This document shows, piece by piece, positions 26,132-62,039 of a DNA stretch of 64,000 nt. The notes under the pieces were generated by a model. The model had not been told where the DNA came from, did not search any database, and worked only from the letters and a program-made list of their open reading frames with translations. Numbering within the stretch: position 1 is the first letter of the stretch; each line of letters opens with the position of its first letter. The stretch comes from Anthracocystis setariae (taxonomy: Eukaryota > Basidiomycota > Ustilaginomycetes > Ustilaginales > Ustilaginaceae): positions 434,001 through 498,000 of the forward strand of contig CAKMXJ010000004.1 of NCBI GenBank assembly GCA_928724745.1. Reading direction: 5' to 3'. The position numbers and the translations under genes are program-made.

Positions 26132-28996
26132 TCAGATGATTTCCAAGTCAGAATCGTCCTCCTCATCCGAACCTGTACATTGTTTCGATTGAGGAGTGGG
26201 TTCGTCGTCGAGATCGTGCTGCCAATCGTCGGTAAAGTCGTCGAGGTTGATCAATTCTCCACCGACGACTTTGTATTTCGACGGTTGCGCGGCAAGACGA
26301 AGTTTGGGTCGATGCGATTTTTTGATCTTCAAACTGGGTTCGTTGGTCGCCGCGCGGGAGGCGTTCTGCGCTAGCGAGAGGAGGTTGTTTCTGGAATCGG
26401 ACGTAGGACGTTGGGACGACGCTTGCACCGTATGGCGTGTAAGGCCCGCGATTGGGAGCACTCCCGCACTGGACGAGGCTCGGTGCGGGTTGGTTAGAGT
26501 CATGAATTTGAGCTGTTGCGCAGACGGAGTTTCCGAAGCGGATGTGGGTGTGGTGACGCCGGTGTATTTGCGTCGCTTTGCATCCGCCATCTTTTTATTC
26601 TGCTGCGCAACACGTTTGCGTTGGTCGAGTGTAGAGTACGCTGCTTTGATCATATCAGCCGTGCCATTCGGTAAGATCGGCAACGCCGGCGGTTCGTTCT
26701 TCTTTCCCCCTCCCCCCTCACCCTGTTCCGCATCATCCTGCGCGACCCCCTCATCCCCACCCCTAGAAGTGTCAACTGGACGCGGGGCAAATCTAGCTTC
26801 GATCTTCCGCATGAGCTGTTCCTCCTCGATCTGCTTCTTCAACCGAGTCTGCTTAGCAGTAACACTACGCCCATAACGACCAGATACATCGTACTTCCAA
26901 CTCGACGGATCCGACGACCGAACTTCAACATCCCCTCCCGCCTGAGACACATACACCTGTCCACCATTGTTATCCATCCCATCTCCCACCGTACCGAACG
27001 AAGAGTTGAGCTTCCTCGACAATGCAGCACGTGCAAACGCATTGCTCCCAGGCCCCCCGTACGACGTGGTGATCTTGTTGATCGCTGAATCCTCATCGGC
27101 ACCCCCGCCAGCTCTGCGACCGGGGAAATCCGACGCAGCTGAGCGCCCAGCTCTCGCCGCACCCCCCGCCCCGCCGAAACGCGAGGTCGAATTGGCCGCG
27201 AACTCAGGTCTTCCACGCGAGAGCTCATCCATATGGCGACTCAGGTGGAAGTCGCACGTTGTGGTACGTGTCTGCTTGCGCGCCTTGACGTCGACGAAAT
27301 TGGTACAACGCTGCCCATTAGCCTTGGTCGCTGAGCACCGCTTGTAGTCGGCTGCTTGTCCGATGATCAGACAGTCTTCGGCGGACCTGGGTGTGAGTCG
27401 GAGCATCTTTGTCTCGAGCGGATTCTTTGCGCCGGCAGTAAAAGGTCGAAGCACCTTGGGATTCATGATGGCGACGACCGTGCCTTCGGCTTGCTTGTAA
27501 AGCAACTCGAAGGCGCCTTTGGATCCGTTGACCCATTTCGTGGATGAGGCCGTCATGATTTCGGATACTTCGGTGCGCACGTTGGTGTTGCGTATATGGA
27601 TGGAGGCGTCAATCGCATCCGACTCGAAGGCGAGCAAAGACAGGTAGTTGTCACCTCGACCCGCACTGCCCTCGCCGTCTCCTCCGATACTGTCGACGCC
27701 GAGATCAACCAGTTTGAGCACCACGAATTTGCGCGGTCGAGTCGCTAATTTGGTTTCTTGGCGTCTACGCTCCATTTCGTCATCCAGCTCACCGTCTTTA
27801 GCATTGCGGCGTGACCTGCCCGACGAGCCCTTCGATGAGGAGGTTGTGTGGAAAGCGTCCGAGTTACCTGGTTCGAGATTGAGCTGAAGTTTACCGTCAT
27901 CGCGAGAGCTTGCATCTCTGAACAAGACGGGGTCGTCGTCGTTTGACGAGATCGGCTTGCGAGCCCATGCTGCGGCATGTGAGGTGCTCGATTCGGGGTC
28001 GAAGCCTTTGGTCATTAGAAGCTCACTTCGTTCGACAATGGTTGCAATGATGACAAAGTCACCGTCGACGGGCACCTCGTAGTCGCCATTTGCTTTGGTA
28101 TTGTAGTCGAGTCGTCCATCTGTGGTCATAGTGACGGTCGTAGGACGAGCGATGGAATACAGGAGGGAGGGGGGGATGTGATATCTTCCGCGTAGATGCT
28201 CTTTGAGTTGAGAATGCGGTATCGTCCTCTCGCGCAGCCTATGGCCTGAGAAGGGTTCCATCTTGAGCCACTTTGGATCTTCTGGGTTGGGAGGAATGGG
28301 TCGAGGCCCCGGACGCAGGCTCTCCACCAGTGCCAGATCTTGATCTCTGGCCACTGCATCGATCGAAGGCAGTAGCCCGTCATAGTCTGCATCATCTTCG
28401 GAGGCGTCTTGGTCCGATTCGGCATGGGCCGAAGAGGCACGCTGACTGGCACGAGCAAAGGGGCCCTGCGCGGACGAGTGCGTCGGATCGTCCGCAGGCA
28501 CAACACGGTCGTCGGCGAAGCCTGCACTTCTGTAGCTCTCCCTGAGAGCGGCTTGCTCTCTGAGCCTTTGAGCCTGTTCGGCTCGTTGCTGCTTGTCGAG
28601 CAAAGACTGCTGCACCTGCTTGGCCTTCTGCAAAAAGTTGCTCGGAGTACGCTGTTCGATCCTGTTCTTGATCTGCGCAAGAAGGCCACGTGCACTTTCA
28701 TCATCGCCATAGCCCGGAGGATATCGAAAGTCAGAATCGGAGCGATGACTGGCAGTCAAGGCCTTGGCACGCGAGTCTGCAAACTTGAGTAGCTCTGCTT
28801 CACGACGAGCTTCGGCATCAGCAAAGCCAGTCGAGTCTCTGCCAACAAATCGACCATGCTGGCTTTGATACTGAAGTGAAGTCTTGGACTTTGGTGGTGA
28901 GGAGGGAGCGACGATGTCGGGCTTGTGTCGTTTGGAGCGATCGAACGAATCGGTTGCAGCCCGTTGCGAGGTTGAAGCTGTCCTGTTGACCTCCAT
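26132..28996 (-). CDS. MCM10: DNA replication protein Mcm10
   Basis: 954 aa from the ATG at 28996, no intron. The N-terminal coiled-coil/Gln-rich part is followed by the OB-fold core (PFSGHRLRERTIPHSQLKEHL, GDFVIIATIVERSELL, KFVVLKLVDLG, GTVVAIMNPKVLRP). The conserved zinc finger comes near residues 550-590: C-x9-C (CSATKANGQRC), then C-x2-H (CDFH), matching the Mcm10 CCCH type. The C-terminus is basic (QRKRVAQQNKKMADAKRRKY). Role: binds Mcm2-7 and DNA polymerase alpha and activates the CMG helicase at origins. Longer than the yeast protein; the extra length is low-complexity. Confidence 0.92.
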   Translation of the reverse strand: MEVNRTASTSQRAATDSFDRSKRHKPDIVAPSSPPKSKTSLQYQSQHGRFVGRDSTGFADAEARREAELLKFADSRAKALTASHRSDSDFRYPPGYGDDESARGLLAQIKNRIEQRTPSNFLQKAKQVQQSLLDKQQRAEQAQRLREQAALRESYRSAGFADDRVVPADDPTHSSAQGPFARASQRASSAHAESDQDASEDDADYDGLLPSIDAVARDQDLALVESLRPGPRPIPPNPEDPKWLKMEPFSGHRLRERTIPHSQLKEHLRGRYHIPPSLLYSIARPTTVTMTTDGRLDYNTKANGDYEVPVDGDFVIIATIVERSELLMTKGFDPESSTSHAAAWARKPISSNDDDPVLFRDASSRDDGKLQLNLEPGNSDAFHTTSSSKGSSGRSRRNAKDGELDDEMERRRQETKLATRPRKFVVLKLVDLGVDSIGGDGEGSAGRGDNYLSLLAFESDAIDASIHIRNTNVRTEVSEIMTASSTKWVNGSKGAFELLYKQAEGTVVAIMNPKVLRPFTAGAKNPLETKMLRLTPRSAEDCLIIGQAADYKRCSATKANGQRCTNFVDVKARKQTRTTTCDFHLSRHMDELSRGRPEFAANSTSRFGGAGGAARAGRSAASDFPGRRAGGGADEDSAINKITTSYGGPGSNAFARAALSRKLNSSFGTVGDGMDNNGGQVYVSQAGGDVEVRSSDPSSWKYDVSGRYGRSVTAKQTRLKKQIEEEQLMRKIEARFAPRPVDTSRGGDEGVAQDDAEQGEGGGGKKNEPPALPILPNGTADMIKAAYSTLDQRKRVAQQNKKMADAKRRKYTGVTTPTSASETPSAQQLKFMTLTNPHRASSSAGVLPIAGLTRHTVQASSQRPTSDSRNNLLSLAQNASRAATNEPSLKIKKSHRPKLRLAAQPSKYKVVGGELINLDDFTDDWQHDLDDEPTPQSKQCTGSDEEDDSDLEII

Positions 28997-29464: not shown

Positions 29465-29627
29465 TGTCACGTGCCCGTAACCTGCACGCCACATTCCTCC
29501 ACTTCCTTGTTAGGTTCACTCGTTGGAGACTCTTGTATATATACAACGGTTTCCCCTTTCACGGGTTACCTCGGAATCACATCCTTCTTCAAGTCATACT
29601 GGCATACAAGCTTGTGCCCGTCTGACA
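29465..29627 (+). repeat. TE1 5' LTR
   Basis: 163 bp from TGTCACGTGCCC to GTCTGACA. It has a TATA-like TTGTATATATACAA near the middle that may drive the element. Same sequence as 43136-43298. Confidence 0.93.
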
Positions 29628-29628
29628 T

Positions 29629-29640
29629 TGGTAGCTTCTG
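29629..29640 (+). other. TE1 primer binding site, probably initiator tRNA-Met
   Basis: TGGTAGCTTCTG starts two bases after the LTR. The first seven bases complement the GCTACCA end typical of eukaryotic initiator tRNA-Met. The remaining five need the species' own tRNA sequence to test. Confidence 0.55.
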
Positions 29641-29956
29641 TTCGCCTTTCGACATCACCACCATACTTGTCTCACTTTTTCGCCACAGCGGCACTTTCGT
29701 CGTTTTCTTCGCCTCTTCATCGCCTTTCTTGGCAGCATTTAGTCACCCGTCATCGACTCACCGCATTCAACCGTCTCTTCCCTCGCTCAGCCTAGATCGC
29801 TTTCCTTAGCGGTTTAGCGCACCTTCTTCTCGCCTTACCATTCCTCATCGATACAGCACTCGTGCCCGAAGTGGCATTATTCGCCCTCAGGCCGATCCTT
29901 CTGACCGCATACAACCCGATATTGCTCTTCGTGAAGAGACTCCTGCTACTTCGATC

Positions 29957-31138
29957 ATGCCGGAAACTCCTGTTTCTTCTGGCTCTCCCGCCGCTCCAAC
30001 CCCGCCGTCCCCCGACGCCCTTCCTCCTTGGATGGCGGAGTTCATGCGCCTCCAACGTGAGCATAGCGATGCTCAGCTCGAGCGCATCCTCAAGGCCCTC
30101 GCTCCCAAAGCGCCTGCCTTCCATGCTGCTCCGGTTCCGGCCAGTGTTGTCTCCCAGGAAAGCGAGCGCCGCGCCTTTCCCCTTCAGGACGCGCGTTTCA
30201 GCCCATCCCCTCCTCTTCAGGATGATGTCGATGCTGGTTTCTCCCCTGTCGGACCCGACTCCAAGCGTCTTAAGCCCGATGATCTGGTCAAATTTGATCC
30301 GGCTACTGACGACGGTGACGTCGAGGTCCTTTGCCGCAGGATCCGCGATCTCGCCACTCTTCACGGCGCCAAGGCTGTATGCGCAGTCGTTCCTCAATGT
30401 CTTCGCGGTACGGCTTCCGACTGGTACTATAACCTTAATGATGCTCAACGCGCGATGCTGCAAGTCAGTTCCGACACTTGGATTCGCATGCTGCGTGAGC
30501 GTTTCAGCATGAGCGTCACCGAAGCCTTCGCTAAACTGAGTGCTTTGAAGTATGACCTCTCTCAGGATTATAACGCCTACCACGAAGGAAAACTTCGTCT
30601 CCTCCGCATTGCTGGCGTTCAGGACACAGCGCAAACCGCACAATGGATTTTCGAAGGGCTTCCCTTCTCCATGCGCAACGCGCTGGCTCACGTGCTCGAG
30701 GATAAGGATCTTGACCTGGACACCTTCCGCCGCAAGTGTGCCGCCCAGCGCGCTACACTGCAAGCTCAGGCCCGCCGCATGGAAAGTCGACCTTTCTCGA
30801 AGTCCCATTCCACGGCCCCTGCGAAGGGTTCTCCTGCTCCTCGTGCTTCGCCACCCGTGCGCGTTTTGGCCGACCGGCCGGCTGTCCGCCCTCCGCCTCG
30901 TCCCTGCAGGCATTGCCAGGGTTCTCATTGGGACAGCGACTGTCCCAAGAAAGCCTTTCCAGCCCGCCCTCCTGCCCCCGCCGTCGCGGCTCATCATGTT
31001 GATGTTGCCGACACGGCCACCGATCCTTCCTACAGCGACCTGGAGTATGCCTATATGGAAAGTGTCGCTCACGACGATACTCCGGATCTGTCGTTCTCAT
31101 CGGCCGACACGGAGGACAGCGCCAACGACGTTGATTAG
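29957..31138 (+). CDS. TE1 Gag
   Basis: 393 aa. It carries a Ty3-type capsid region (RIRDLATLHGAKAVCAVVPQCL ... ASDWYYNLNDAQRAML ... WIRMLRERF) and, near the C-terminus, a zinc knuckle CRHCQGSHWDSDC (C-x2-C-x3-H-x4-C, one residue shorter than the retroviral form). It ends at a single TAG (31136-31138); pol follows in the same frame. Role: forms the virus-like particle and binds element RNA in the cytoplasm. Confidence 0.88.
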   Translation: MPETPVSSGSPAAPTPPSPDALPPWMAEFMRLQREHSDAQLERILKALAPKAPAFHAAPVPASVVSQESERRAFPLQDARFSPSPPLQDDVDAGFSPVGPDSKRLKPDDLVKFDPATDDGDVEVLCRRIRDLATLHGAKAVCAVVPQCLRGTASDWYYNLNDAQRAMLQVSSDTWIRMLRERFSMSVTEAFAKLSALKYDLSQDYNAYHEGKLRLLRIAGVQDTAQTAQWIFEGLPFSMRNALAHVLEDKDLDLDTFRRKCAAQRATLQAQARRMESRPFSKSHSTAPAKGSPAPRASPPVRVLADRPAVRPPPRPCRHCQGSHWDSDCPKKAFPARPPAPAVAAHHVDVADTATDPSYSDLEYAYMESVAHDDTPDLSFSSADTEDSANDVD

Positions 31139-31150
31139 GAAGACGCGGAG

Positions 31151-31669
31151 ATGATTGCCGTGCATTCGTCTCCACTCAAACTCCCGCCGGATCGCCTTCC
31201 AGCCCTACCTATCGTCGACGCCCATGACCTTCCCACTCAATTCCTTCTTTCCCCTACCCACCTTCGTTTGCGCGTTTCCCCTCCTGACGGTACCGTCTTT
31301 CACGCCTGTTTGGATACGGGTGCGGCCCGTTCCCTCATCGCCGAAAGCACACTCCAGCTTTTCGAGCATTCTCTCTTCTCCGATTCCACGACCCTCAGTA
31401 CGGTCAGCACGCCTACTACGGCCGTTGGCCGTGCGGAATTCATCCTGCATATCCCTTGTCCTCCCCATGCCATTGCCCGTGCGACCGTCTCGTGTCTCGT
31501 CCTGAAGGCGCTGCCAGTTCCTCTTCTCCTGGGAATGGACTTCGTTCTGGCGCATGGCGTTCTTTACGACGCTGTCAAACAAATTGTCACCTTGCAGTCC
31601 AGTGGTTTACGCACCGCCGTTACCGCTGATCGATCCTCCCCTGTTCTGTCTCCTATGGTCGCTCATATC
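31151..31669 (+). pseudogene. TE1 pol, protease part, split by TE2
   Basis: Starts at an ATG 12 nt after the gag stop, in the gag frame. It encodes a retropepsin: active site CLDTGAARSLI, then LLLGMDFVLAHGV. TE2 interrupts it after 31669, the last base of its target copy ATATC. Past that point the apparent frame runs into the TE2 LTR. The rest of pol resumes at 39841 in frame. Confidence 0.88.
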
Positions 31670-32019
31670 TGTTATGAACATCAGTGCCGGGCAGGAACAT
31701 AATTGTGTGACAAGCGGGAGGGGGCTTTCCCGATCCGCGTTGTGGATCGGGGTCCAGGGTGGAACTGCGGCAATCTCCGGGAGGGGCTCCCGGAAGTCAT
31801 ACCGAAGATCCTCCCTGCAACTAACTCACGTTCAGACGTCGATTGTACTTTAGCTTACTCACTCTAGTAGGTGGAAATATCAGACCTTCTCCCGATCTCC
31901 CGCTCACCCGCTCCGCCATCTAGGCAACGATCCCGGGAGCAACACCCGGTACCACGCCCCTGGCCTCGATACAGACGCACCGCCACGTTCCGAGGTTCCC
32001 AGACCCCAGGAGCTTAACA
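31670..32019 (+). repeat. TE2 5' LTR
   Basis: 350 bp, TGTTATGAAC to AGCTTAACA. It contains two strong hairpins: 31729-31751 (CCCGATCC/GGATCGGG) and 31776-31794 (TCCGGGAG/CTCCCGGA). GTCGATTGTA at 31838-31847 is complementary to the sequence just after the LTR, which suggests the RNA 5' end lies there. Confidence 0.93.
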
Positions 32020-32020
32020 T

Positions 32021-32030
32021 TACAATCGAC
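32021..32030 (+). other. TE2 primer binding site, probable self-priming type
   Basis: The bases after the LTR (TACAATCGAC) do not start with TGG as tRNA-primed sites do. They are the perfect reverse complement of GTCGATTGTA inside the LTR (31838-31847). This is the arrangement of Tf1-type elements, whose own RNA 5' end serves as primer. Confidence 0.65.
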
Positions 32031-32066
32031 CTCCCCGTTGCCGTCAACGCGGAGACTCCAGCTACC

Positions 32067-35000
32067 ATGCAAACCCGTAGCCAGCATCGTCCCGGCTCCC
32101 CGGACTCTGTTACGAGCTCGGGCAGCCCTACCCCCGATTCGGGAGTCGACCCCGTCCAGGGACTAGTTGCCGCCGTGCAGAACCTAACCGCCCTGGTCGG
32201 AGGACTCGCCGACCAGATCCGGCTGCTCAACAGCGGCCGAGCCCCCGACCCCACCGTCCCGACCCCGGCAGAACCGGGCCTCCCGCCCATGGAGCACCCG
32301 GGAGACCTTTCTCCGGAACGCGAGACCTCGGAGGAAAGGTACGCCCGCGCTACTCGCCTTATGGGCGAGCGCGGGGCCAATCCCCAGCCGGTGCCCCCGG
32401 GAGCTCCCGTCGTAGCTACCAACTGGGACCCTACGGAGGACTACTCCTCCCGGGTCAAGGCCCCGGAAGTTAGCGTCGCCGCCCCTTCCTGGGACGGCAA
32501 GCGCGACGAGCTGGAGGCTTTCATCGAACAATGCACCCTCCACTTCGATCTTAACCCGGCACGTTTCCCCTCCGACCCCCGCCGGGTCTTATGGGCCCTA
32601 GCCCATATCTCGGGTGTACCCCGGGAGCGACTCCGCAACCTGCGCCAGGCCCGCCCGGAGATCAACCTATTCCACAAATGGGATACGTTCTGTGCCGATC
32701 TTCGCCGCACCTATGGGGATCCTAACCCGGGACACACCGCCCGGGTCAAGCTCCAGCGGCTGCGTCAATCGGGAAGCGTTAGCGCTCATGCTGCCGAGTT
32801 CTTGGCCTTAGCCACTAAGGCTAACGCTACCGACAATCAGCAATTGCTGACGACCTTCCAGCTTAGCCTCCGGGAGAGCCTCCGGCAGAAGCTCCTCCAC
32901 GTGGAGACCTACGACCTGCACGAGTACATTGACACCGCTATCCGAACCGAGCAGCGAATGTACGAAATCGGCCTGGTGACCCCGGGTCATTCGGACACCC
33001 CGGGTCGCCCGGAACGCCGCCCCGAACCTCGGGGTGGTCGCCCACCCAATTCGATGGCACCCCGTCGCGAGACCCCCAACAAGCGGGGTGATCCGCCCCG
33101 CCCCGGGCTGGCCAGCCGGGAGCTTCCCGACGAGGTCCGCAAGTACCGTCGGGAAAACAACCTCTGCTACGGGTGCGGGGGCCCTCACGCAGTCCGGGAC
33201 TGCCCAAAGGCCGCCCAGACTCGGCCCCTCCGGGCCAACGTGGCTATCCTGGACCCCGCCAACGGCGAGCTTTTGGTCCAACCCCTGGTCCCGGACGTCC
33301 CGGAGATCCGGTGGTCCGGTGAGGACGAAGCCACACCTATCAACGGCGAGGATGACCTACCCGATGACCGCTCCGTTCTTTCCTATGACCCGGAGTGGGA
33401 CCCCGAGTCCACCGACCATCCTCAGTCTCTCCCGGTGAGGGCCAACATTGCCCAACTTCGCCAGGACCCGGGACTCGTGGATCTCAGGAGCCATGTAGCG
33501 GCCCTCATCCCTCCCGCCGAGCCGGTGATCAGCGGGGACACCATCCGAGTACACCGACACCCCAGCATCCCGGTGTATGAGTGCTGGGTCACGCTGGCCG
33601 GGTGCCGTGCCCGGGCCCTCATTGACGGGGGCGCCACCGCGTCTTTTGTGGACAGGGCCATGCTGGATCGGGAGGTGGGCGTCCCGGAGGCCCTCCGGGC
33701 CCCGATGCGCACGGCAACCTTCGATTCCCATTCAGAGGACATCACCCACACCCTCCGGGCAACGGTCAGCCTCGCGGGCGTCCCGGTTACCCCGAATCAT
33801 CAATTCTACGTCGCACCCCGCATCTCCGATTATGATATCATCCTGGGAATGGATTGGATTGAGAAGACCGAACCGGTACTAAATTATCAAACCCAAACCA
33901 TGCACTTCCCGCTCCCGGGAGGAGGGGGCTACGCCACCACCCCGGTTCAACCTACCGGCCCTCCGCTGCTTACCAATGGACAGGATCCCGTCCCGGGGGA
34001 GAACTGTTTCGCTATCCACCCCAACCCTTTGGGGCCACCCCGGGCCCCAGGCCTCCCGGAAGAGTATCGGGACTTCTCGGACGTGTTCGATGAGGTCAAC
34101 GCCGACGTGCTCCCTCCTCGCCGGTCTCACGACCACCAGATTAACCTCCTTCCCGGAGCCCAGATCCCACATGGCGCACTATACTCCCTCTCCGGGAGAG
34201 AAATGGAGGAACTTAAGACCTATCTTGATAAGATGCTTGAGATAGGGTTCATCCGGCCGTCCAAGAGCCCGGCAGCCGCCCCTATCATCTTCGTCCCGAA
34301 GAAAGATGGCAAACTCCGCCTTTGCGTCGACTACCGGGCCCTCAACAGCATCACCGTCAAAGACAAGTACCCGATTCCCCTGATCTCCGAGCACCTGGAC
34401 TGCCTCTCCCGGGCTAAGATTTACACGAAATTAGATCTTAAGGGGGCCTACAATCTGGTCCGCATCGCGGAGGGCGACGAATGGAAAACAGCCTTCCGGA
34501 CCAGGTACGGGAGCTACGAATACTTAGTTATGCCCTTTGGACTATGTAACGCTCCGTCTACCTTCCAGCGTCTTATGAACCACGTCCTCCACGATCTCTT
34601 GGATGTTACCGTAATAGTATATTTGGACAATATCCTCATATTCTCGGTTGACCCCGCAGAACACACCTCTCACGTCCGGGAGGTGCTAAGGCGCCTCCGG
34701 GACCACAAGCTGTACTGTGCCCCGGAGAAATGCGACTTCAGGACCTCGTCTGTCGAGTTCCTCGGGTACCGGGTCAGTCCCGGGGGGATCAGCATGGACC
34801 CCGGCAAGGTAGACGCGGTGACGTCTTGGCCAGAACCGGTCACCGTCCGGGACATCCAGGTCTTCCTAGGATTTGCCAATTTCTATCGTCGTTTCATCCG
34901 ACACTACTCCCGGGTGGCGTCCCCGCTCACCGATCGGCTCAAGAACAAGGCCTCCGGTAAGATCAACTTGGAGCCTCGGGAGCGGGAGGCTTTCACCCGT

Positions 35001-36944
35001 CTCAAAGAAGCCTTCACTACCGCTCCAATCCTACAACACTTCGACCCCTCCCGGCTTACAGTGATCGAGACAGATGCTAGCGATTACGTCGTGGCGGCCG
35101 TACTCTCACAGTGGTACGCCATCCCGGGGACCGATCCCGGAGCCGTACCCCGGCCCTCGACCCACCGGCTCCATCCGGTAGCCTATTGGTCGCGGAAAAT
35201 GCAGCCCGCAGAACGTAACTACGAAATTCACGATAAAGAGCTGCTAGCAATCGTAGACGCGCTGCAGGAATGGAGACATTATCTCCACGGGCTCCAGGAG
35301 CCGTTTGAGGTGCTCACTGACCACCAGGCCCTCCAATATTTCCAAACGAAACGGCAACTTAACAGGCGGCAGGCCCGGTGGAGCATGGCCCTCGGGGAGT
35401 TCACGTTTACCATAACGTACCGACCCGGGACCCAGGCAACCCGCCCAGACGCTCTGTCCCGGCGCTCCGACGGTCACCCCAACACCACCACTACCAATCA
35501 TCAGCATGACCCCGCTAACGTCGCGACCCTACTACCTCCTTACCTGTTTCACGACCCCGGGATGGTGGAACAACAACTCCCAGCCGCTCACCGGGTATCG
35601 GACGCCGCCCCGCATCCCGACCCTCTTCCAGCCAATCCCGAGTCCCCCGCCGACGTGAAACGAATCCTAGAACGCTATCACGACCACCCGACGGCGGGCC
35701 ACCCGGGAGTGGCCGCTACCCTGGAACTGGTCCGCCGTCACCACTCCTGGCCCAATCTCAAGCACGATGTCACGGAGTACGTTCGGACCTGCGGGGCCTG
35801 TAAACGCGCTAAAGCGCCCCGGCACAAGCCTTACGGACTGCTGCTCCCGCTCGACGCCCCGACCCGGCCGTTCGGGACCATCACAATGGACCATATTGAA
35901 GGTCTCCCGGATTCCCGGATCGGTGGCCTCACGTTCGACTCCATCCTCGTCGTCGTCGATCGCCTCACCAAATACTCCCTCTTCCTCCCGGCCCGGAAGT
36001 CCGATACAGCTAAAGATCTCGCCCACGTACTGTTCTCCCGCGTCTTTGCCTATTTTGGACTCCCGGACACCATCGTGTCGGACCGGGGGCGCACTTTTGT
36101 AGCGTCCCTGTGGAAGGATATCTTAACGGCCCTCGGGACCACTCCGGCCCTCTCCACAGCCTATCATCCCCAAACAGATGGTCAAACCGAGCGTGTTAAC
36201 CAGAATCTGGAAGTTTTCCTCCGCTTCTATGTCAACTACCAGCAAGACGACTGGGCTGCCTGGCTGCCGTACGCCCAACTTACGCTTAACAATCGGGTGT
36301 CAGCTACTACCGGGCTCCCGGCCACCCTACCCTTGTTTGGATTCACCCCGAAAACCCTCCCCGGGTCACCAGCCCTTTCCCCGGATGGCATCCCGCCCTC
36401 CGATTCGGCTTTCCGGGAACTCATCCAGCACTGCCAGACCAACATTCACCACGCTGCCTCCCTGATGTCCAAATACGCAAACCGCTCCAGGATGGACCGG
36501 TCTTTTTCCGGGGGTGACATGGTGTTACTCCGTACCCGACATCTGCGTCAAGATCGACCATCCCGGAAGTTAGGGAACCCGTTAGCGGGACCGTTCCGCA
36601 TCCTCCAGACAATAGGCCCCCGGGCCTACAAGCTGGACCTCCCGCCCGCCTGGAAAATTCATCCGGTATTTCACGTCAGTCTCCTGGAACCATACTCCCG
36701 GGATACCCGGCCCTCCGAGCATGCCCCGACATCCCGGCGCCTGGAGGACGACCGACAAGATTTTGAAGTTGAAGGCATCCTAGCCTCCCGGGAGACGCGC
36801 CGGGGACGACAGTACCGGGTGAAATGGGTCGGGTACACCCAACCTACCTGGGAGCCAGCAGTTCATCTTGAAAACAGCCAAGAATTACTGCGGGAGTTCC
36901 ATGAGCAACAACCCGGGAGCCAGGAGGACCCTCCGGGCTACTGA
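32067..36944 (+). CDS. TE2 Gag-Pol polyprotein (RT catalytic site mutated)
   Basis: 1625 aa in one open frame with no gag stop or shift. Order: gag; zinc knuckle CYGCGGPHAVRDC (about 367-379); protease ALIDGGATASFVD (about 515); RT from about 740 (FVPKKDGKLRLCVDYRALN); RNase H (VIETDASDYVVAAVL); integrase with HHCC (HPTAGHPG ... CGACKRAK) and D-D-E (TMDHIEG, VSDRGRTF, TDGQTERVNQ); C-terminal chromodomain (VEGILASRETRRGRQYRVKW). The RT core motif reads YLDN (Asn codon 34629-34631, residue 855) where TE3 has YLDD. The second Asp is a metal ligand, so RT should be dead or very weak. Confidence 0.95.
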   Translation: MQTRSQHRPGSPDSVTSSGSPTPDSGVDPVQGLVAAVQNLTALVGGLADQIRLLNSGRAPDPTVPTPAEPGLPPMEHPGDLSPERETSEERYARATRLMGERGANPQPVPPGAPVVATNWDPTEDYSSRVKAPEVSVAAPSWDGKRDELEAFIEQCTLHFDLNPARFPSDPRRVLWALAHISGVPRERLRNLRQARPEINLFHKWDTFCADLRRTYGDPNPGHTARVKLQRLRQSGSVSAHAAEFLALATKANATDNQQLLTTFQLSLRESLRQKLLHVETYDLHEYIDTAIRTEQRMYEIGLVTPGHSDTPGRPERRPEPRGGRPPNSMAPRRETPNKRGDPPRPGLASRELPDEVRKYRRENNLCYGCGGPHAVRDCPKAAQTRPLRANVAILDPANGELLVQPLVPDVPEIRWSGEDEATPINGEDDLPDDRSVLSYDPEWDPESTDHPQSLPVRANIAQLRQDPGLVDLRSHVAALIPPAEPVISGDTIRVHRHPSIPVYECWVTLAGCRARALIDGGATASFVDRAMLDREVGVPEALRAPMRTATFDSHSEDITHTLRATVSLAGVPVTPNHQFYVAPRISDYDIILGMDWIEKTEPVLNYQTQTMHFPLPGGGGYATTPVQPTGPPLLTNGQDPVPGENCFAIHPNPLGPPRAPGLPEEYRDFSDVFDEVNADVLPPRRSHDHQINLLPGAQIPHGALYSLSGREMEELKTYLDKMLEIGFIRPSKSPAAAPIIFVPKKDGKLRLCVDYRALNSITVKDKYPIPLISEHLDCLSRAKIYTKLDLKGAYNLVRIAEGDEWKTAFRTRYGSYEYLVMPFGLCNAPSTFQRLMNHVLHDLLDVTVIVYLDNILIFSVDPAEHTSHVREVLRRLRDHKLYCAPEKCDFRTSSVEFLGYRVSPGGISMDPGKVDAVTSWPEPVTVRDIQVFLGFANFYRRFIRHYSRVASPLTDRLKNKASGKINLEPREREAFTRLKEAFTTAPILQHFDPSRLTVIETDASDYVVAAVLSQWYAIPGTDPGAVPRPSTHRLHPVAYWSRKMQPAERNYEIHDKELLAIVDALQEWRHYLHGLQEPFEVLTDHQALQYFQTKRQLNRRQARWSMALGEFTFTITYRPGTQATRPDALSRRSDGHPNTTTTNHQHDPANVATLLPPYLFHDPGMVEQQLPAAHRVSDAAPHPDPLPANPESPADVKRILERYHDHPTAGHPGVAATLELVRRHHSWPNLKHDVTEYVRTCGACKRAKAPRHKPYGLLLPLDAPTRPFGTITMDHIEGLPDSRIGGLTFDSILVVVDRLTKYSLFLPARKSDTAKDLAHVLFSRVFAYFGLPDTIVSDRGRTFVASLWKDILTALGTTPALSTAYHPQTDGQTERVNQNLEVFLRFYVNYQQDDWAAWLPYAQLTLNNRVSATTGLPATLPLFGFTPKTLPGSPALSPDGIPPSDSAFRELIQHCQTNIHHAASLMSKYANRSRMDRSFSGGDMVLLRTRHLRQDRPSRKLGNPLAGPFRILQTIGPRAYKLDLPPAWKIHPVFHVSLLEPYSRDTRPSEHAPTSRRLEDDRQDFEVEGILASRETRRGRQYRVKWVGYTQPTWEPAVHLENSQELLREFHEQQPGSQEDPPGY

Positions 36945-37268
36945 CTCCCGACTGCCACCGCACAGCCCCGGATGGGCAGGCCGGCACGTCGTCGGCCGTT
37001 CCCGCGACCCCCTCCGGAAGTAACCCTCGGACGGGGCGCGACAATCCGCCCCCGACCGGGACACGGGGTACACGTCGGGAACAGCTCACCCCGACCAGCG
37101 TTTTACGTCCAGGGTTATACCTCACCTCTCCACTCTCACCCGAAGGACAGAACACTCCTCAATCACACACACACACAGCACTCAGGGTTTCGGTGCGGAC
37201 ACAATTTCATTTTTACTCCCGGGGTCCTAATGACCCCGGACACGTTACACGACCAGGCTCCCGGGAGC
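36945..37268. other. TE2 spacer between pol and antisense gene
   Basis: About 320 bp including a short CA repeat (about 37160-37175). It would contain the 3' ends of the two converging transcripts. No gene supported. Confidence 0.4.
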
Positions 37269-39200
37269 CTACCGACGCCCCCTGCGAGAAGGAGTGCGGG
37301 GACGGGACTCGTACACATCCGAGTCCACCATCACCACATCCTCGTCGGAGTCCTCCCCGGACTCCCGGCTGCGATCCTCAGCTCCCGAGGACTCCTCGTC
37401 GCGGGAGTCTTCCCGGGAGCCTTCCCGAGAGCTGCCGCGACGGCGGGGTCGGATGGGGGCCCGCATGTCCCTCACCACCGCCTGAGCGCGGCGGCGCTGG
37501 GCACGCCTCTCCGGCTCGGGAGAGGCGGGGCGCAGCCCACCCAACGGAAGGCGCTTCCCCCCGGTCTGGAAGCTCCCCGGGAGGCGTTTCCCTCCCGTCT
37601 GGGAGCCCCCAGGCAGGCGCTTACCCCCGGTTTGGGGACGAGACCCTCCAGCCCGGGGGGGCCTTTCCCGCGTCGGGGTCCCGGGGCGCTGCCTTTTCGC
37701 GCGCGCCAACTCCGGGGTTGCCGGAGCATAACCCGGAGGAGAGACCCTCCGGGGGCGGGACGGCCCAGCCTCAGCACTGGGGCGGGGAGCAGCCGCCACG
37801 CGAGCAGGGACGGCGGCGGGAGCAGGGGCAGGGGCAGGGGCAGCGGGAGCCACTACCGGGGGCGGGGGAGGAGGCGGGACGCCAAGCTCCTGAGTGATGC
37901 CTCCAAAGGCATGACTCACACCCTCCACGTACCGGAGGATGTTCTCGTCCCGGTACGACCAGGCGAGACGGCGCTCCGCTCCCACGGCAGCGGTCCGGCG
38001 CAGCACTTGCACCAGGGCGGCAATGACGCCCGCCGCGTGCGAAGCGGCCTCCCGGGCCCCGGCCATATGTTGCTCCCCGGGAGCATCGAAGGGGCACATC
38101 TGGCGGAGGGCCAGGGGTGCGTCGTGCACGAGGGTGGTTTGTCTCCACCCCCGCTGGCCCCGGGGAGGCCGGGAGCTCGGGGCGCTGCTGCTCCCACCGG
38201 TGGACGGCCCAGCGGGAGACTCGGGAGCCCGGGGTCGACTCCCCGCCTTGGCTTGCCGCCGAGCCTCATACCGAGCACGCGCGGGGGCGTACTCGGCCGC
38301 CAGGTACTCCGGGAGGTCCGCCGCGGAGAAGGAGGTGAAAGGCATCCCGGGGTTAGGACGTTGTCCCCGGGATCGGAGAACAAGGTAAGCTTCCATAAGG
38401 AAGCCACCCTCCTGGCGCCCCGTGATGTCCGGGACGCGACCCTGCCAGTCGCAGGGATACCCCGCGGCATGGCACCTCTCACACGCGGCAGGCTGACCGT
38501 CCCGGGGGTCTCCCGAACCCCCGACGTCCCGGTGCGCAAATCCCAGGGAGCACTGCGGGTGGGGTTTTTTCTTGCTGTTGGCGCACGACCAACACTGCCC
38601 GTACCCCTCAGAAGCGGGAGGGGTACCCCGTGCTCGGACCTCCCGGACCAACTCTGCCAGCCTCCCGGGATCCCCGATCGTCACACCGACCCCGGCAGTT
38701 GGGGCGGCCACGTTCGAGGGCCCGGGGGTGACCCCACTGCGGGGGGCCACCGCGGCACTGGCATCCTGGCCCGGGAGCCCGGGAGCCTGCTGCCCATCTT
38801 CCCGGCGCGGAGATGTATTCCGCGCCGGGGACTCGTCCACAATCCTGGAAGCCGGGATCAATTCGGCTCCAGCTTCCCCGCCCTCCCGAGCGGGGGACTC
38901 GTCCGCATACAGGGAGACCACGTCTCCCTCTTGGGCCACGTACCGGCCCGACTCGTCCACGACCTCCGGGGCACTCACTCCCCGGGACTCGTCCACAACC
39001 TCCGGGGCACTAACGCCCCGGGACTCGTCCACGGCCATAGCTTGTTCGGGGGCGGGGGCAGAGCCTCCCGCTACCCCGGAGTCGGAGCCACCGCGCCGGG
39101 TGGAGGATCGTGTTGCTGCGTTCAAATGGGAAAGGCAAAAGATGTCAGTGATCCGTCCCCGCCTCGAACCTCGGGTCCCGGAACAGTACTTACTACGCAT
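37269..39200 (-). CDS. TE2 antisense accessory gene, spliced, Cys-cluster protein (unknown function)
   Basis: Minus-strand gene: exon 1 39194-39200 (ATGCGTA), intron 39116-39193 (78 nt; GTAAGT donor, CTGAC branch-like box, CGCAG acceptor), exon 2 37269-39115, giving 617 aa. A TATATAAG box lies about 80 nt upstream. The same intron layout is found in TE3. The product has acidic repeats (VDESRGVSAPEV twice), CWSCANSKKKPHPQC (about 175) and CERCHAAGYPCDW (about 215) that could bind zinc, a conserved central block (GGFLMEAYLVLR, FTSFSAADLPEYLAAEYAPAR), QTGGKRLPG repeats (about 494-525) and an acidic end (SGEDSDEDVVMVDSD). I recognise no known family. The sense strand is open too but looks unselected. 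Confidence 0.72.
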   Translation of the reverse strand: MRSKYCSGTRGSRRGRITDIFCLSHLNAATRSSTRRGGSDSGVAGGSAPAPEQAMAVDESRGVSAPEVVDESRGVSAPEVVDESGRYVAQEGDVVSLYADESPAREGGEAGAELIPASRIVDESPARNTSPRREDGQQAPGLPGQDASAAVAPRSGVTPGPSNVAAPTAGVGVTIGDPGRLAELVREVRARGTPPASEGYGQCWSCANSKKKPHPQCSLGFAHRDVGGSGDPRDGQPAACERCHAAGYPCDWQGRVPDITGRQEGGFLMEAYLVLRSRGQRPNPGMPFTSFSAADLPEYLAAEYAPARARYEARRQAKAGSRPRAPESPAGPSTGGSSSAPSSRPPRGQRGWRQTTLVHDAPLALRQMCPFDAPGEQHMAGAREAASHAAGVIAALVQVLRRTAAVGAERRLAWSYRDENILRYVEGVSHAFGGITQELGVPPPPPPPVVAPAAPAPAPAPAAVPARVAAAPRPSAEAGPSRPRRVSPPGYAPATPELARAKRQRPGTPTRERPPRAGGSRPQTGGKRLPGGSQTGGKRLPGSFQTGGKRLPLGGLRPASPEPERRAQRRRAQAVVRDMRAPIRPRRRGSSREGSREDSRDEESSGAEDRSRESGEDSDEDVVMVDSDVYESRPRTPSRRGRR

Positions 39201-39280
39201 GGTCTTGATGTTACGTTCCCGAGCTGTAGGACGTAGGATGTGGAAGAAGGGAAAGAACCAGGAACGGGAGAGGGGCGAGT

Positions 39281-39288
39281 CTTATATA
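39281..39288 (-). promoter_or_regulatory. TATA box of the TE2 antisense gene
   Basis: On the minus strand this reads TATATAAG, about 80 nt upstream of the antisense ATG. It is conserved at the same place in TE3 (61484-61491). It points away from the 3' LTR, toward pol. Confidence 0.65.
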
Positions 39289-39472
39289 CGGAAGAGAGGT
39301 TAGCGCTCAGCCCGCTGCGCACGCCCGGCCGCGCACGCCCCGCCAGGCACACAAAGCGTCCGTTCCTGACCCCTTTGTTTGCGGAGCGAGTTACGCGTGG
39401 TGGGGCCGGTACTCCCGCGTGGGCCCTAAGACCCGGGAGCGGGCAAAAGGCCACGGGGACGTCGGCCATCCC

Positions 39473-39482
39473 GGGGGGGGGG
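39473..39482 (+). other. TE2 polypurine tract (G10)
   Basis: Ten G followed by TAA, directly before the 3' LTR at 39486. This is the position of the plus-strand primer. TE3 has the same tract at 61677-61686. Confidence 0.6.
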
Positions 39483-39485
39483 TAA

Positions 39486-39835
39486 TGTTATGAACATCAG
39501 TGCCGGGCAGGAACATAATTGTGTGACAAGCGGGAGGGGGCTTTCCCGATCCGCGTTGTGGATCGGGGTCCAGGGTGGAACTGCGGCAATCTCCGGGAGG
39601 GGCTCCCGGAAGTCATACCGAAGATCCTCCCTGCAACTAACTCACGTTCAGACGTCGATTGTATTTTAGCTTACTCACTCTAGTAGGTGGAAATATCAGA
39701 CCTTCTCCCGATCTCCCGCTCACCCGCTCCGCCATCTAGGCAACGATCCCGGGAGCAACACCCGGTACCACGCCCCTGGCCTCGATACAGACGCACCGCC
39801 ACGTTCCGAGGTTCCCAGACCCCAGGAGCTTAACA
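39486..39835 (+). repeat. TE2 3' LTR
   Basis: 350 bp, matching the left LTR apart from T at 39664. It is followed by ATATC, the duplicated TE1 sequence. Confidence 0.93.
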
Positions 39836-39840
39836 ATATC

Positions 39841-42800
39841 ACGTCTCCTCCCTCCGATCCCCTCCTTGCCCCGGATATGCGCGCTCCCCCCGATATGGAC
39901 AAATATACGTTGCCTTTCACCATAGTGCCCGATCATTGCCATTCCGACGCTTTGCCGACCTTTGATGACGACATTTCTCCTTCAGTTCGCGACGCCTTCC
40001 TTCATGTGTTTAACGACTTTCCAGACGTCTGGCGCGATGGCTTAGGCATGCTCACCAATGGCGATGCGATGCGCTTACCCTCTAAGGTCTTGGACGCCAA
40101 CCCGCACAAATTCAAACCTCGCCTGTATCGAGTATCGCAGCGCGATCGTCAGGCTATTGACGAGGTTTTTGACGAGCTCACTCGCCAAGGTCGCCTCCGC
40201 AAAGCTCCTCCGGGTACTGCTTGTGGCTGGCCAGTGTTTGTCGTCTATCGCCATGGAAAGCCACGTCCCGTTGTCGACCTCCGCCAGCTCAATTCCGTGG
40301 TGGAACCTGATGCCTATCCTCTTCCCCATCCCGAAGAACTTCGCGAGCGCCTCGCTGGGGCGCAGTTCATCACTACCTTTGATTTGCGCAAAGCCTTCTA
40401 TCAAATGCCCTTGCATGAGGAAGATCGCTGGAAAGCCACGGTCCTCACTCATCGTGGCCAGGAAACGCTCTCTTGCACAATTATGGGTCAGTCTCGCTCT
40501 GTCGCTTTCCTCCAGCGTACCTTAACCGAAGCTTTTGCCGCAGCTGGTCTGGGCTCTTCCTCCTTCGTGTACGTGGACGATTTCGGTGTTCGTTCCGCAA
40601 CCATTGACGGTCACTTGCGCGACGTGCGCGCAGTTCTCACGGTTATTCAAAATCTTGGTTTAACGCTCGCTCGCGACAAGGCCCATGTCGCTCGGCGCGA
40701 GGTCCCTCTCCTCGGCCACCTTGTCTCCGGCACAGGCACTCGGACTCATCCTGCGAAGTGCGAGGCAATTCAAGCAATTTCCTTCCCTGCCACGTTGGAC
40801 CAGCTCGAGCATGTAGTAGGTTTCTTCACCTATTACAAGAATTTTGTCGCTCGCTTTGCGCAACTTATTGTGCCCTTGCAGCGCTTAAAAACCATGCTCC
40901 TCCGTGGCGCTCCGAAGGGAGGACAGCCTCGTAAGAAGCACTGCTCCTCGACGCCGGTGCCATCCGACCCCGCCGCGCAACAGTCGTTAATTGAGCTTAA
41001 AGCCATTTTGCAGGAACGCGTTTTGCATTTCCCAGACTACTCGCTACCGTTCCTGTTATACGTCGACGCCTCTCAACAAAACGGTTTCGCTCTCGCGCTT
41101 CATCAAAACCTTCCGCGTTCAGGAGTTTCCCCGTCTGAAACCGCAGAAGTGCCTATTTGGTTTGATTCACGAACTCTCCAGCCAGCCGAGCGCGCCTACT
41201 GGCCTACCGAGCTTGAGGCTGCCGCCGCTGTCTGGGCTCTTTTCCGGGTCAAGCGCTTTCTCGACGCCTCGCCGGGCCCTCACCTCCTCTTCACCGACCA
41301 TCAGGCCGTAACTTCCATTGCCGACGTCAAGCCATTCTCTACCACGCCCGCAGCTCGGAATCCACGACTCGTCCGTTTTGCCCTTCTCCTCGCTGAGTTC
41401 CGCCCGAAGCTGACCATCTTACATCGCAAGGGTATGTATATGACCCATGTCGATGCGCTCAGCCGGATTCAAGCAGCCGACCAGCACGCCGGCACGTTCC
41501 ACGCCGCGGAAGTGCAGCTTCAGCCCTCCCTGCGCGAAGCCATCTTGCAAAGCCAAGTCTCCGATACCGCATTTGCCCGTACGCGCGCAGATCTCTTAGC
41601 AGCCGCTGGTGCCAATCGTCCGTTCGTTTCTGGTTCCTTCGGCATCAAGGACGACGAATTACTTTATAAAGTGGATCCCGACCGCTGGCGGCTTTGCATT
41701 GGTCCGTCTGTCCTACCCCGCGTTATTGACCTGGCCCACTCTGGTCACTTGGGTGTTAAGGCCACTCTTGATCGATTTCGCCAAGTGGCATATGCTCCTC
41801 ACCTCCTCCGGCATGTCGAAGACTTTGTCCGCCGTTGTATCCACTGCCAGCAAACCGTTACCCACCGACATCGCCCTTATGGTGCTTTGCAGCCACTCCC
41901 AAAGCCGGAACAACCATTTGTCACCTTGTCCTGTGACTTTCTCGTTCGCCTACCGCCAGTACGCACTTCGTTTGATACGGATATCTTGGACACGATCCTG
42001 GTCATTACCGATACCGGGACTCGACGCATTTACCTTCTGGCTGGAGCTGCAACCTGGTCAGCTGAACGATGGAGTCTCCGCTTCGCCGATCGCCTGTTGC
42101 CTCACTTAGGTTGGCCTCAGAAGATCATTAGCGATCGCGATTCTCGTCTGACTTCTCAATTCTGGCGCTCCCTCAATGTGCGTTATGGATGCGAGCTTGT
42201 TTACTCTACGGCTCACCACAAGAGTGACGGGCAAAGCGAGCGCGCTATCCAATCGGTGGAATTGCTTCTACGGGGCCTTTGTAACGCATGGGCGGATGAT
42301 TGGGCAACTCACTTGCCTCTGGTGGAGCTTCTATTGGGTAATCGCGTGAACGCTTCATTGAACGTCGCCCCAAACGACCTCCTGTATGGCCTTCGTCTCC
42401 GTGATCCTTTCACATCCCTACAACCGGTTACTACTCTTGGTGATCTCTCTCTTCCTGATCGCCGCGTCGCTCTTAGGCAGGAAGCTCTCGACCACCTGGC
42501 CTCGGCCCAGGCCTATATGAAGCACCGTTATGATGGATCGCACGAACCTCCTCCGAGCCTTGCGGTTGGTGATTGGGTCTGGCTTAACCTCCATGATGGT
42601 TACCAGATCCCTAAGGGGCTTCTTCCTCCGGATCGCCGTATCGGTGTGCAGCGCATTGGCCCTTATCGTATCTGTCGCGTGGTCAGCAACCTGGCTTATG
42701 AACTCGCTCTCCCAGCCGGCTCTCGTCTGCATCCCGTGATCTCGATTCAACACTTGGAGCGGTATATTCCTTCGGATAAGCCGATTACCTCTGCTACAAT

Positions 42801-42963
42801 CACGGCCATTCTTCGTGAACGGCAAACTCGCACTCGTGGCCTCCAGTACCTTGTCCGCTTTGATCACGCTGGTCGTGATAAGTGGGTGCCGGAATCCACC
42901 GTCACCGACGCTACTGTTCTCCAAGCTTGGCGCTCGCGCCACTCCAATCCTTCTCCTGGATAA
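39841..42963 (+). pseudogene. TE1 pol, RT-RNase H-integrase-chromodomain part
   Basis: Continuation of TE1 pol after TE2, in frame with 31669. RT: PVFVVYRHGKPRPVVDLRQLN, DLRKAFYQMPL and intact YVDD (FVYVDDFGV). RNase H: LYVDASQQNGF, FTDHQAV. Integrase: HSGHLGV and CIHCQQ zinc-binding region, then D-D-E (SCDFLVRLP, ISDRDSRL, SDGQSERAIQ). A chromodomain follows (TRTRGLQYLVRFDHAGRDKWVPES). The chromodomain should guide integration to marked chromatin (family knowledge). The domain signatures look complete, but the gene is cut by TE2. Confidence 0.9.
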
Positions 42964-43135
42964 CTCCTTCTGTTTCGTCTCTTTCTCTCCGCCCCTGTCC
43001 TTCTCATGCCTTGCGCCCTGCCGTGTTGTTGTTCCCTGTTCCGTCCTTGTCCCTGTTGTCTCGTAGCCTGTAAGTTTTGACTTAGTCGGATCTTCGCTCC
43101 TCCTCGTCGCGGAGCGACGTCTTTAGGGGGGGCAG

Positions 43136-43298
43136 TGTCACGTGCCCGTAACCTGCACGCCACATTCCTCCACTTCCTTGTTAGGTTCACTCGTTGGAGA
43201 CTCTTGTATATATACAACGGTTTCCCCTTTCACGGGTTACCTCGGAATCACATCCTTCTTCAAGTCATACTGGCATACAAGCTTGTGCCCGTCTGACA
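43136..43298 (+). repeat. TE1 3' LTR
   Basis: 163 bp, identical by eye to 29465-29627. It is preceded by TTAGGGGGGGCAG, a short G-rich plus-strand primer tract, and followed by the target copy CATCT. Confidence 0.93.
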
Positions 43299-53860: not shown

Positions 53861-54210
53861 TGTTACGAACATCAGTGCCGGGCAAGAATATAGTAGTGTG
53901 ACAAGCGGGAGGAGGCTTTCCCGATCCAGGTCAGGAATCGGGGTCCAGGGTGGAACTGCGGCAATCTCCGGGAGGGGCTCCCGGGGGTCACACCAAAGAT
54001 CCTCCCCGCAACTAACTCACGTCAGGACGTCGATTGTATTTTAGCTTACTCACTATAGTAGGTGGAAATATCAGACCTTCTCCCGATCTCCCGCTCACCC
54101 GCTCCGCTATCTAGGCAACGATCCCGGGAACAACACCCGGTACCACGCCCCTGGCCTCGATACAGACGCACCGCCACGTTCCGAGGTTCCCAGACCCCAG
54201 GAGCATAACA
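53861..54210 (+). repeat. TE3 5' LTR
   Basis: 350 bp, TGTTACGAAC to GCATAACA. The two hairpins of TE2 are kept with changes. GTCGATTGTA at 54029-54038 again matches the site after the LTR. Confidence 0.93.
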
Positions 54211-54211
54211 T

Positions 54212-54221
54212 TACAATCGAC
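54212..54221 (+). other. TE3 primer binding site, probable self-priming type
   Basis: TACAATCGAC, reverse complement of 54029-54038 within the LTR. The offset from the LTR start (168) is the same as in TE2. Confidence 0.65.
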
Positions 54222-54257
54222 CTCCCCGTTGCCATCAACGCGGAGACTCCAGTCACC

Positions 54258-59165: not shown

Positions 59166-59489
59166 CTCCCGGCTGCCACCGCGCAGTCCCGGATGGGCAG
59201 GCCGGCAGGTCGTCTGTCGTTCCCACGACCCCTTCCTGTAGTGACTCGCGGGCGGGGCGTGACAATCCTCCTTTGCCCGGGACACGGGGTGCACGTCGGG
59301 AACAGCTCCCCCCGACTGCCGCTTTACGTCCAGGGTTATGCCTCACCTCTCCATTCTCACCCGAAGGACAGAACACTCCTCAGTCACACACACACACAGC
59401 ACTCAGGGTTCCGTTACGGACACATTTTCATTGTTATTCCCGGGGTCCTAATGACCCCGGACACACTACACGGCCGGGCTCCCGGGAGC

Positions 59490-61403: not shown

Positions 61404-61483
61404 TGTCTTGATATCTTGTCCCGAGAGTTAGAACGTGGAAATGTGGGAGAAGGGAAGGAACCAGGAACGGGAGTGAGGCGAGT

Positions 61484-61491
61484 CTTATATA
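61484..61491 (-). promoter_or_regulatory. TATA box of the TE3 antisense gene
   Basis: TATATAAG on the minus strand, about 80 nt upstream of the antisense ATG, as in TE2. Confidence 0.62.
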
Positions 61492-61689
61492 CAGAAGAGA
61501 GGTTAGCGCTCAGCCCGCTGCGCACGCCCCACTGCGCACGCCCCGCCAGGCACACAAAGCGTCCGTTCCTGACCCCTTTATTCGCGGAGCGGGTTACGCG
61601 TGGTGGGGCCGGGGCTCCCGCGTGGGGCCCTAAGATCCGGGAGCGGGCAGAAGGCCGCGGGGACGTCGGCCATCCCGGGGGGGGGGTAA

Positions 61690-62039
61690 TGTTACGAACA
61701 TCAGTGCCGGGCAAGAATATAGTAGTGTGACAAGCGGGAGGAGGCTTTCCTGATCCAGGTCAGGAATCGGGGTCCAGGGTGGAACTGCGGCAATCTCCGG
61801 GAGGGGCTCCCGGGGGTCACACCAAAGATCCTCCCCGCAACTAACTCACGTCAGGACGTCGATTGTATTTTAGCTTACTCACTATAGTAGGTGGAAATAT
61901 CAGACCTTCTCCCGATCTCCCGCTCACCCGCTCCGCTATCTAGGCAACGATCCCGGGAACAACACCCGGTACCACGCCCCTGGCCTCGATACAGACGCAC
62001 CGCCACGTTCCGAGGTTCCCAGACCCCAGGAGCATAACA
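61690..62039 (+). repeat. TE3 3' LTR
   Basis: 350 bp, matching the left LTR apart from one base (61751). Preceded by the ten-G tract at 61677-61686 and TAA. Confidence 0.93.

Follow-up and report, generated by a model that had tools for sequence, protein, structure and literature searches.

The window analysed here is a 64,000-nucleotide stretch of an Anthracocystis setariae contig (CAKMXJ010000004.1, positions 434,001 to 498,000 of the forward strand; assembly GCA_928724745.1), and all coordinates below are window positions. It contains an LTR retrotransposon, TE2, bounded by two plus-strand LTRs of 350 bp each (5' LTR, 31670..32019; 3' LTR, 39486..39835; 99.7% identity) and flanked by a 5-bp target duplication, ATATC, at 31665-31669 and 39836-39840. 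The plus-strand gag-pol frame of TE2 (32067..36944, 1,625 aa) encodes Gag, protease, reverse transcriptase, RNase H, integrase and a chromodomain, and ends in a TGA at 36942-36944 whose next bases are CTC. Pfam matches occur in the order RVT_1, RNase H and rve, followed by Chromo (PF00385) at residues 1566-1613 (E = 5.6e-10); with this Ty3 domain order and a chromodomain C-terminal to the integrase, TE2 is a chromovirus (chromodomain Ty3/Metaviridae). A second element, TE3 (53861-62039), has the same chromodomain Ty3 arrangement by Pfam and is young, since its LTRs are 99.7% identical to each other.

TE2 is itself nested inside another Ty3-type element (29465-43298), which is delimited by identical 163-bp repeats at 29465-29627 and 43136-43298. 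This outer element has a Ty3-type pol frame downstream of TE2 (39877-42963) and two upstream frames, 29957-31138 and 31151-31702, at the expected place of gag and protease, the first of which gave no Pfam match. Only ~170 nt separate its pol from its 3' repeat, leaving no room for an antisense gene. Beside the nested elements, a long minus-strand frame (26132-28993), presumably a host gene, contains a primase-type zinc finger (PF09329), as Mcm10 does.

Between pol and the 3' LTR, in the placement known as aORF-3R, the minus strand of TE2 carries a further gene (39200-37269). A TATA box, TATATAAG, at 39281..39288 precedes an ATG at 39200, which opens a 7-nt first exon (ATGCGTA, 39194..39200); a 78-nt intron (39116..39193) with donor GTAAGT, branch site CTGAC (39148-39144) and acceptor CGCAG follows, and then exon 2 (37269..39115). 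The earlier note had proposed this succession of box, ATG, short exon, intron and long frame, and its coordinates were verified, with a spliced product of 617 aa; the unspliced frame is open as well and would yield 643 aa. The same box, first exon, intron length and splice signals had been reported for TE3, and they are present in that copy (locus L017), where the spliced antisense frame ends after 171 codons, a broken gene in a young element. Since the TE2 intron is a multiple of three and contains no stop codon, TE2 and TE3 by themselves are no proof of splicing.

A DNA search of the window's own genome returned at least 42 matches, representing at least about 38 copies, and 37 copies (TE2 and 36 further loci) were read as family I. 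The ATG, donor, branch site and CAG acceptor are present in 36 of the 37, the donor being GTAAGT in 30, GTGAGT in 5 and GTAGGT in 1, and the branch site CTGAC in 30 and CTAAC in 6; a TATA box of the form [T/C]ATATAA[A/G] likewise stands 87-90 nt upstream of the ATG in 36/37. The sole exception, L044, is without the 5' part of the gene. Introns are 75-82 nt long. A full-length frame with the family C-terminus is kept in 21/37 copies; in the other 16 the frame is lost, cut or altered (L010 and L022, with altered C-termini, are not counted as intact). In 11 of the 21 intact copies, all from subfamilies other than that of TE2, the unspliced frame stops after 16-62 codons, as against 602-614 aa for the spliced product, so splicing is needed there and the intron is real. 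No intron loss was found among the 36 family I copies that contain the region, in keeping with a genomic RNA of the opposite sense: it carries the intron backwards, so the intron would not be removed and would survive retrotransposition. One further Pol copy (C27:83227) has no antisense gene within the 3 kb read downstream of pol; its match stops 38 nt past the pol stop, and it therefore looks truncated rather than cleanly deleted.

A search of a 5.8-billion-protein database (7,990 scored candidates) gave a single relative of the antisense protein, P0001, at 37% over half of the query (E = 7.4e-38); neither an alignment query nor a query with the family III protein returned protein relatives beyond it. 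When P0001 was used to search the genome, family II emerged as a weaker group beside a second set of Pol matches. Pol is ~77% identical in family II and ~57% identical in family III. Eight family II loci were sampled, of which seven match a two-intron antisense gene (introns of 89-90 nt and 82 nt); six are full-length, encoding 563-567 aa, and the seventh, L047, has a broken frame, while L050 did not fit the intron-2 pattern and was left out of the family II counts. The unspliced frame stops after 19-25 codons in all seven matching copies. In family III, a 68-74 nt intron divides the cysteine motif in 5/6 loci, with products of 505-522 aa spliced versus 340-357 unspliced; for the sixth locus, L054, the sequence examined did not include the gene. 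The antisense cores of families I and II align at 31% over 153 residues (75.5 bits, pairwise E = 1e-18), and the kinship of family III with these two is drawn from position, strand, splicing and cysteine pattern, there being no significant alignment. In one family III locus, tandem repeats (CATCTTCCAGCCGCTGTGAGCTCGTCTGCG-like) lie directly upstream of the antisense start (L055:1-180) and are possibly promoter or regulator binding sites.

Substitution patterns in the antisense frame indicate purifying selection. For family I we compared 8 chosen subfamily representatives out of the 21 intact copies (28 pairs) and obtained antisense dN/dS values of 0.139-0.290 (mean 0.22); in these 8 copies the Pol tail gives 0.12. 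The corresponding ranges are 0.14-0.28 in family II (15 pairs, 6 intact copies of 8 loci, with L047 omitted for its broken frame) and 0.17-0.22 in family III (10 pairs, 5 copies of 6 loci). Between TE2 and L026, changes at the three codon positions number 56, 59 and 170, an enrichment at the third. Along the protein, 50-codon windows give 0.10-0.11 in a conserved, cysteine-rich core (38268..38678, minus strand in TE2), two later windows are lower still (0.07 and 0.09), and the N-terminal part is looser, at 0.30-0.97 across the first 150 columns. Gene structure, conserved splice sites, the need for splicing in some subfamilies and purifying selection, recurring in three families, make it nearly certain, as far as sequence can speak, that the antisense gene is a real spliced protein-coding gene. 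Comparison across copies and families thereby lends strong support to the earlier note's view that the accessory gene is real, spliced and convergent with gag-pol.

Six cysteines in the core (38594-38451, minus strand) are invariant across a nine-sequence alignment of families I and II with P0001. Their spacing is CX2CX10CX22CX2CX6C in family I, and in family III it is CX2CX6C-X19-CX2CX6C. The canonical fungal Zn2Cys6 cluster reads CX2CX6C-linker-CX2CX6-8C, which the family III spacing fits save for a longer linker, whereas families I and II deviate from it. Pfam, including Zn_clus and TRP28 (PF04195), gave no match for the TE2, family III or P0001 proteins, and for the family II protein it gave only a chance-level match to a family other than TRP28 (E = 0.68); without a Zn_clus match, we do not file the protein under Zn2Cys6 despite the resemblance. 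Outside the cysteine core the protein is low-complexity and charged, and its AlphaFold model has a pLDDT of 39.5, too poor for a fold search. The cysteine pattern is consistent with a zinc-cluster-like nuclear regulator, which would bind zinc and act in the nucleus.

The region past the antisense stop codon has candidate 3'-end features of an antisense transcript. A hairpin at 37218..37240 (minus strand), in the predicted 3' UTR, is preserved across the 21 intact copies: G-C, G-U and A-U states occur, and each can pair on the antisense strand, while the sense strand would have an A-C mismatch in place of G-U. Downstream of the hairpin lies an A-rich stretch, accompanied in TE2 by a TG repeat. 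The hairpin is possibly an RNA 3'-end element, and the A-rich stretch and TG repeat would be in keeping with a 3' UTR and poly(A) region.

Such a transcript could matter as RNA, pairing with the genomic RNA to form dsRNA or causing transcriptional interference, with the frame incidental. Since the whole antisense unit sits in the interval from pol to the 3' LTR, the sense genomic RNA would span it, and dsRNA has been raised as a possibility for plant antisense ORFs (excerpts of PMC7264820). An RNA-only role would nevertheless need neither strong amino-acid constraint in three families nor conserved, frame-keeping introns, and we consider it improbable.

The sense strand opposite the antisense gene is also open. 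In TE2, the frame continuing pol past its UGA (36945..39233, plus strand) is open for 763 codons and is a candidate readthrough extension. The pol stop reads TGA-CTCC in 35/35 family I copies that have the Pol tail (L010 and L019 lack it, hence 35 of 37 scored) and TGA-CGG in 8/8 family II copies. The sense frame in continuation of pol, spanning antisense exon 2, is open for 731-860 codons in 19/21 intact family I copies, the exceptions being L012 (315 codons) and L014 (26 codons), both with a frame-shifted spacer; in family II it is open for 856-951 codons in 6/6 full-length copies, so that 25/27 intact copies of the two families have 731-951 open codons. An extension starting instead at the ATG at 36972 was rejected, that ATG not being conserved in other subfamilies. 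Spacer length, taken from one stop codon to the other, is divisible by three in 19 of the 22 family I copies measured (318-351 nt), with L012, L014 and the frame-broken L022 off register, and in L009 the alignment shows a one-base gain and a one-base loss that cancel out. In the six full-length family II copies all spacers (357-477 nt) are multiples of three; they differ by 45 and 75 nt (L046 is an example), and their sense translations contain repeated segments, so that frame-keeping tandem repeats seem to drive the length change. The two remaining sense frames of the spacer average only ~2 stops, and one of the two is likewise stop-free in 4/11 family I copies, which makes an open spacer weak evidence by itself.

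Codons of the open sense frame and of the antisense gene fall in the same register, and a sense stop therefore corresponds to an antisense TCA, CTA or TTA codon. These three codons are absent from the antisense genes of the 21 intact family I copies. We compared alignment columns, treated as independent and restricted to those common to at least 80% of copies: A occurs in 0/54 Ser-TCN/Leu-CTN columns versus 69/301 other fourfold columns in family I (Fisher P = 6e-6), and in 0/54 versus 24/241 in family II exon 3 (P = 0.011). Family II has two TCA columns, both upstream of exon 3, which on our reading are explained by the register shift that the intron upstream of that exon introduces. TCA and CTA together are already half as common as other A-ending codons in long frames that lie outside the elements and were presumed to be host genes, and this host bias weakens the signal: after correction for it, P = 0.0014 in family I, 0.063 in family II and 0.0009 combined, while with Pol as the baseline the combined P is 8e-7.

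Selection on the amino acids of the sense frame presents a different picture. For the sense register, dN/dS is 1.38 over the 28 pairs of family I and ranges from 0.50 to 1.89 over the 15 pairs of family II. Within the spacer, 9 family I copies give a ratio of 0.72 for the sense frame, against 0.93 and 0.89 for the other sense frames, and 5 family II copies give 0.95, against 0.76 and 0.87. Neither the register comparison nor the spacer ratios revealed amino-acid constraint on this frame in either family, and the sense extensions of the two families are not similar to each other (best E = 3.0). An origin of the antisense frame as a by-product, whether of GC-rich sequence or of a gene on the sense strand, was rejected on the register dN/dS and the cross-family similarity.

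These data also bear on the converse reading, in which the true third gene lies on the sense strand, as an env-like extension, and the antisense frame only mirrors it. The long open sense frame of TE2, with its counterparts across families I and II, is what such a gene would predict. Against it stand the dN/dS of 0.22 in the antisense as opposed to the sense register, antisense proteins that are alike between families I and II where the sense extensions are dissimilar, splice signals on the antisense strand, and family III, in which the antisense gene is present but the sense frame is closed; we regard this reading as very improbable indeed.

The combination of stop context and open frame nonetheless suggests that, in families I and II, the strand facing the antisense gene encodes a readthrough extension. 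A UGA-C stop and an open sense frame occur together in both, while family III has, in the one copy checked, a UAA pol stop with a second stop two codons on, and a closed frame with 7-10 antiphase stops in the antisense gene of five copies, though its GC3 is lower. In family II, a predicted stem-loop has its core beginning 8 nt past the UGA in 8/8 copies, with extra pairs at the foot from 3-5 nt in shorter (54-nt) folds, a z of -1.37 and no compensatory change; RNA folding downstream of the UGA-CUC in family I gave no consistent stem. Families I and II may thus code on both strands in the same codon register, for a spliced cysteine-rich antisense protein and for a Gag-Pol extension of ~730-950 residues reached by leaky UGA-C readthrough, the latter basic, low-complexity and selected only to stay open, not for its sequence. 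Given the unconserved sense amino-acid sequence and the missing stem in family I, we hold translation of the sense frame to be tentative, its chances falling somewhat short of even.

Taken together, we favour, with rather more confidence than doubt, a model in which the TE2 family comprises chromodomain Ty3 elements whose third gene, on the antisense strand in the interval from pol to the 3' LTR, encodes a cysteine-rich regulator of the element. The conserved TATA box suggests that this gene may have its own promoter, internal to the element and just inside the 3' LTR, from which it would be transcribed and then spliced; the transcript would end at signals in the spacer adjoining pol. The product would consist of the conserved cysteine-rich core, with its Zn2Cys6-like spacing, and low-complexity charged tails. 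Its likeliest role may be nuclear DNA-binding control of the element's transcription or integration, exerted in trans for all copies, and we give a nuclear DNA-binding regulator an even chance. Copy-number control and chromatin targeting, the two functions raised in the earlier note, would both be conceivable outcomes. A self-limiting repressor that controls copy number, as opposed to a helper of transposition, has a precedent in p22, the element-encoded inhibitor of Ty1 (excerpts of PMC4599808), and a repressor binding to element DNA would fit with the clustered cysteines. Nothing in the data, however, separates repressor from activator, and with dozens of copies present, selection for a costly self-repressor would be harder to sustain; we rate self-repression as unlikely, if far from negligible.

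What the antisense accessory genes of LTR retrotransposons do is not settled, and this system, in a small fungal genome, combines numerous copies from three families with clear splice sites and selection that can be measured, making transcription, splicing and function directly testable. An intron whose antisense orientation lets it persist through retrotransposition provides a clean, naturally occurring marker for expression of the minus strand. Should the sense extension be translated as well, both strands of a single stretch of DNA would be coding in codon register, under two different kinds of selection.

The earlier note was right that antisense ORFs are known in plant retrotransposons, but it mentioned neither the two further families with such genes, nor the sense frame left open past the UGA, nor a fungal precedent: Boty-like retrotransposons of Botrytis cinerea carry the antisense gene brtn (Zhao et al. 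2011; excerpts of PMC7264820, PMC8365987, PMC4227169 and PMC5987419). As in TE2, the excerpts describe a fungal element with a chromodomain in Gag-Pol (PMC4227169) and an additional gene, antisense and placed between pol and the 3' LTR (PMC7264820). Set beside that description, the smut gene needs splicing and has clustered conserved cysteines, and families I and II additionally keep an open sense frame past the UGA. Among plant elements, maize Grande gene23 and other aORF-3R genes are antisense, lie between pol and the 3' LTR and occur in most copies, and their own promoter and a nuclear protein without clear similarity to other proteins have been reported (excerpts of PMC7264820); the word "intron" is absent from the text of that review. 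In Retand, which has TRP28 antisense ORFs, 97% of clusters carry an antisense ORF with a putative DNA-binding domain, and tandem repeats occur in the same region (excerpts of PMC11963269, a paper whose text likewise does not contain the word "intron"). TRP28 (PF04195) was not found in the antisense proteins described here, and Retand is not a chromovirus. The HBZ gene of HTLV-1 is spliced and encodes a bZIP-type factor. In the excerpts consulted it is an antisense, regulatory nuclear gene of a retroelement (PMC11963269), and the HTLV antisense promoter lies in the 3' LTR (PMC7264820); here the TATA box lies inside the element instead, and the protein is cysteine-rich. For the sense frame, the nearest parallel is type II readthrough of plant viruses, whose signal is a UGA with CGG or CUA directly after it and, in many cases, a stem-loop some 6-12 nt further on (excerpts of PMC11166343). 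Both families share the C after UGA, and family II has UGA-CGG and a predicted stem core at 8 nt; the differences are that readthrough would here extend Gag-Pol and overlap an antisense gene, and that family I has UGA-CUC without a consistent stem. Among the open-access literature matches listed and the excerpts drawn on, we found no antisense accessory gene from a smut or other basidiomycete, none in any LTR retrotransposon that was described as spliced, and none overlapping a readthrough extension. Antisense accessory genes as such are already known from Grande gene23, Retand and Botrytis brtn; relative to that literature, the smut elements add splicing and the pairing of a UGA-C stop with an open sense frame.
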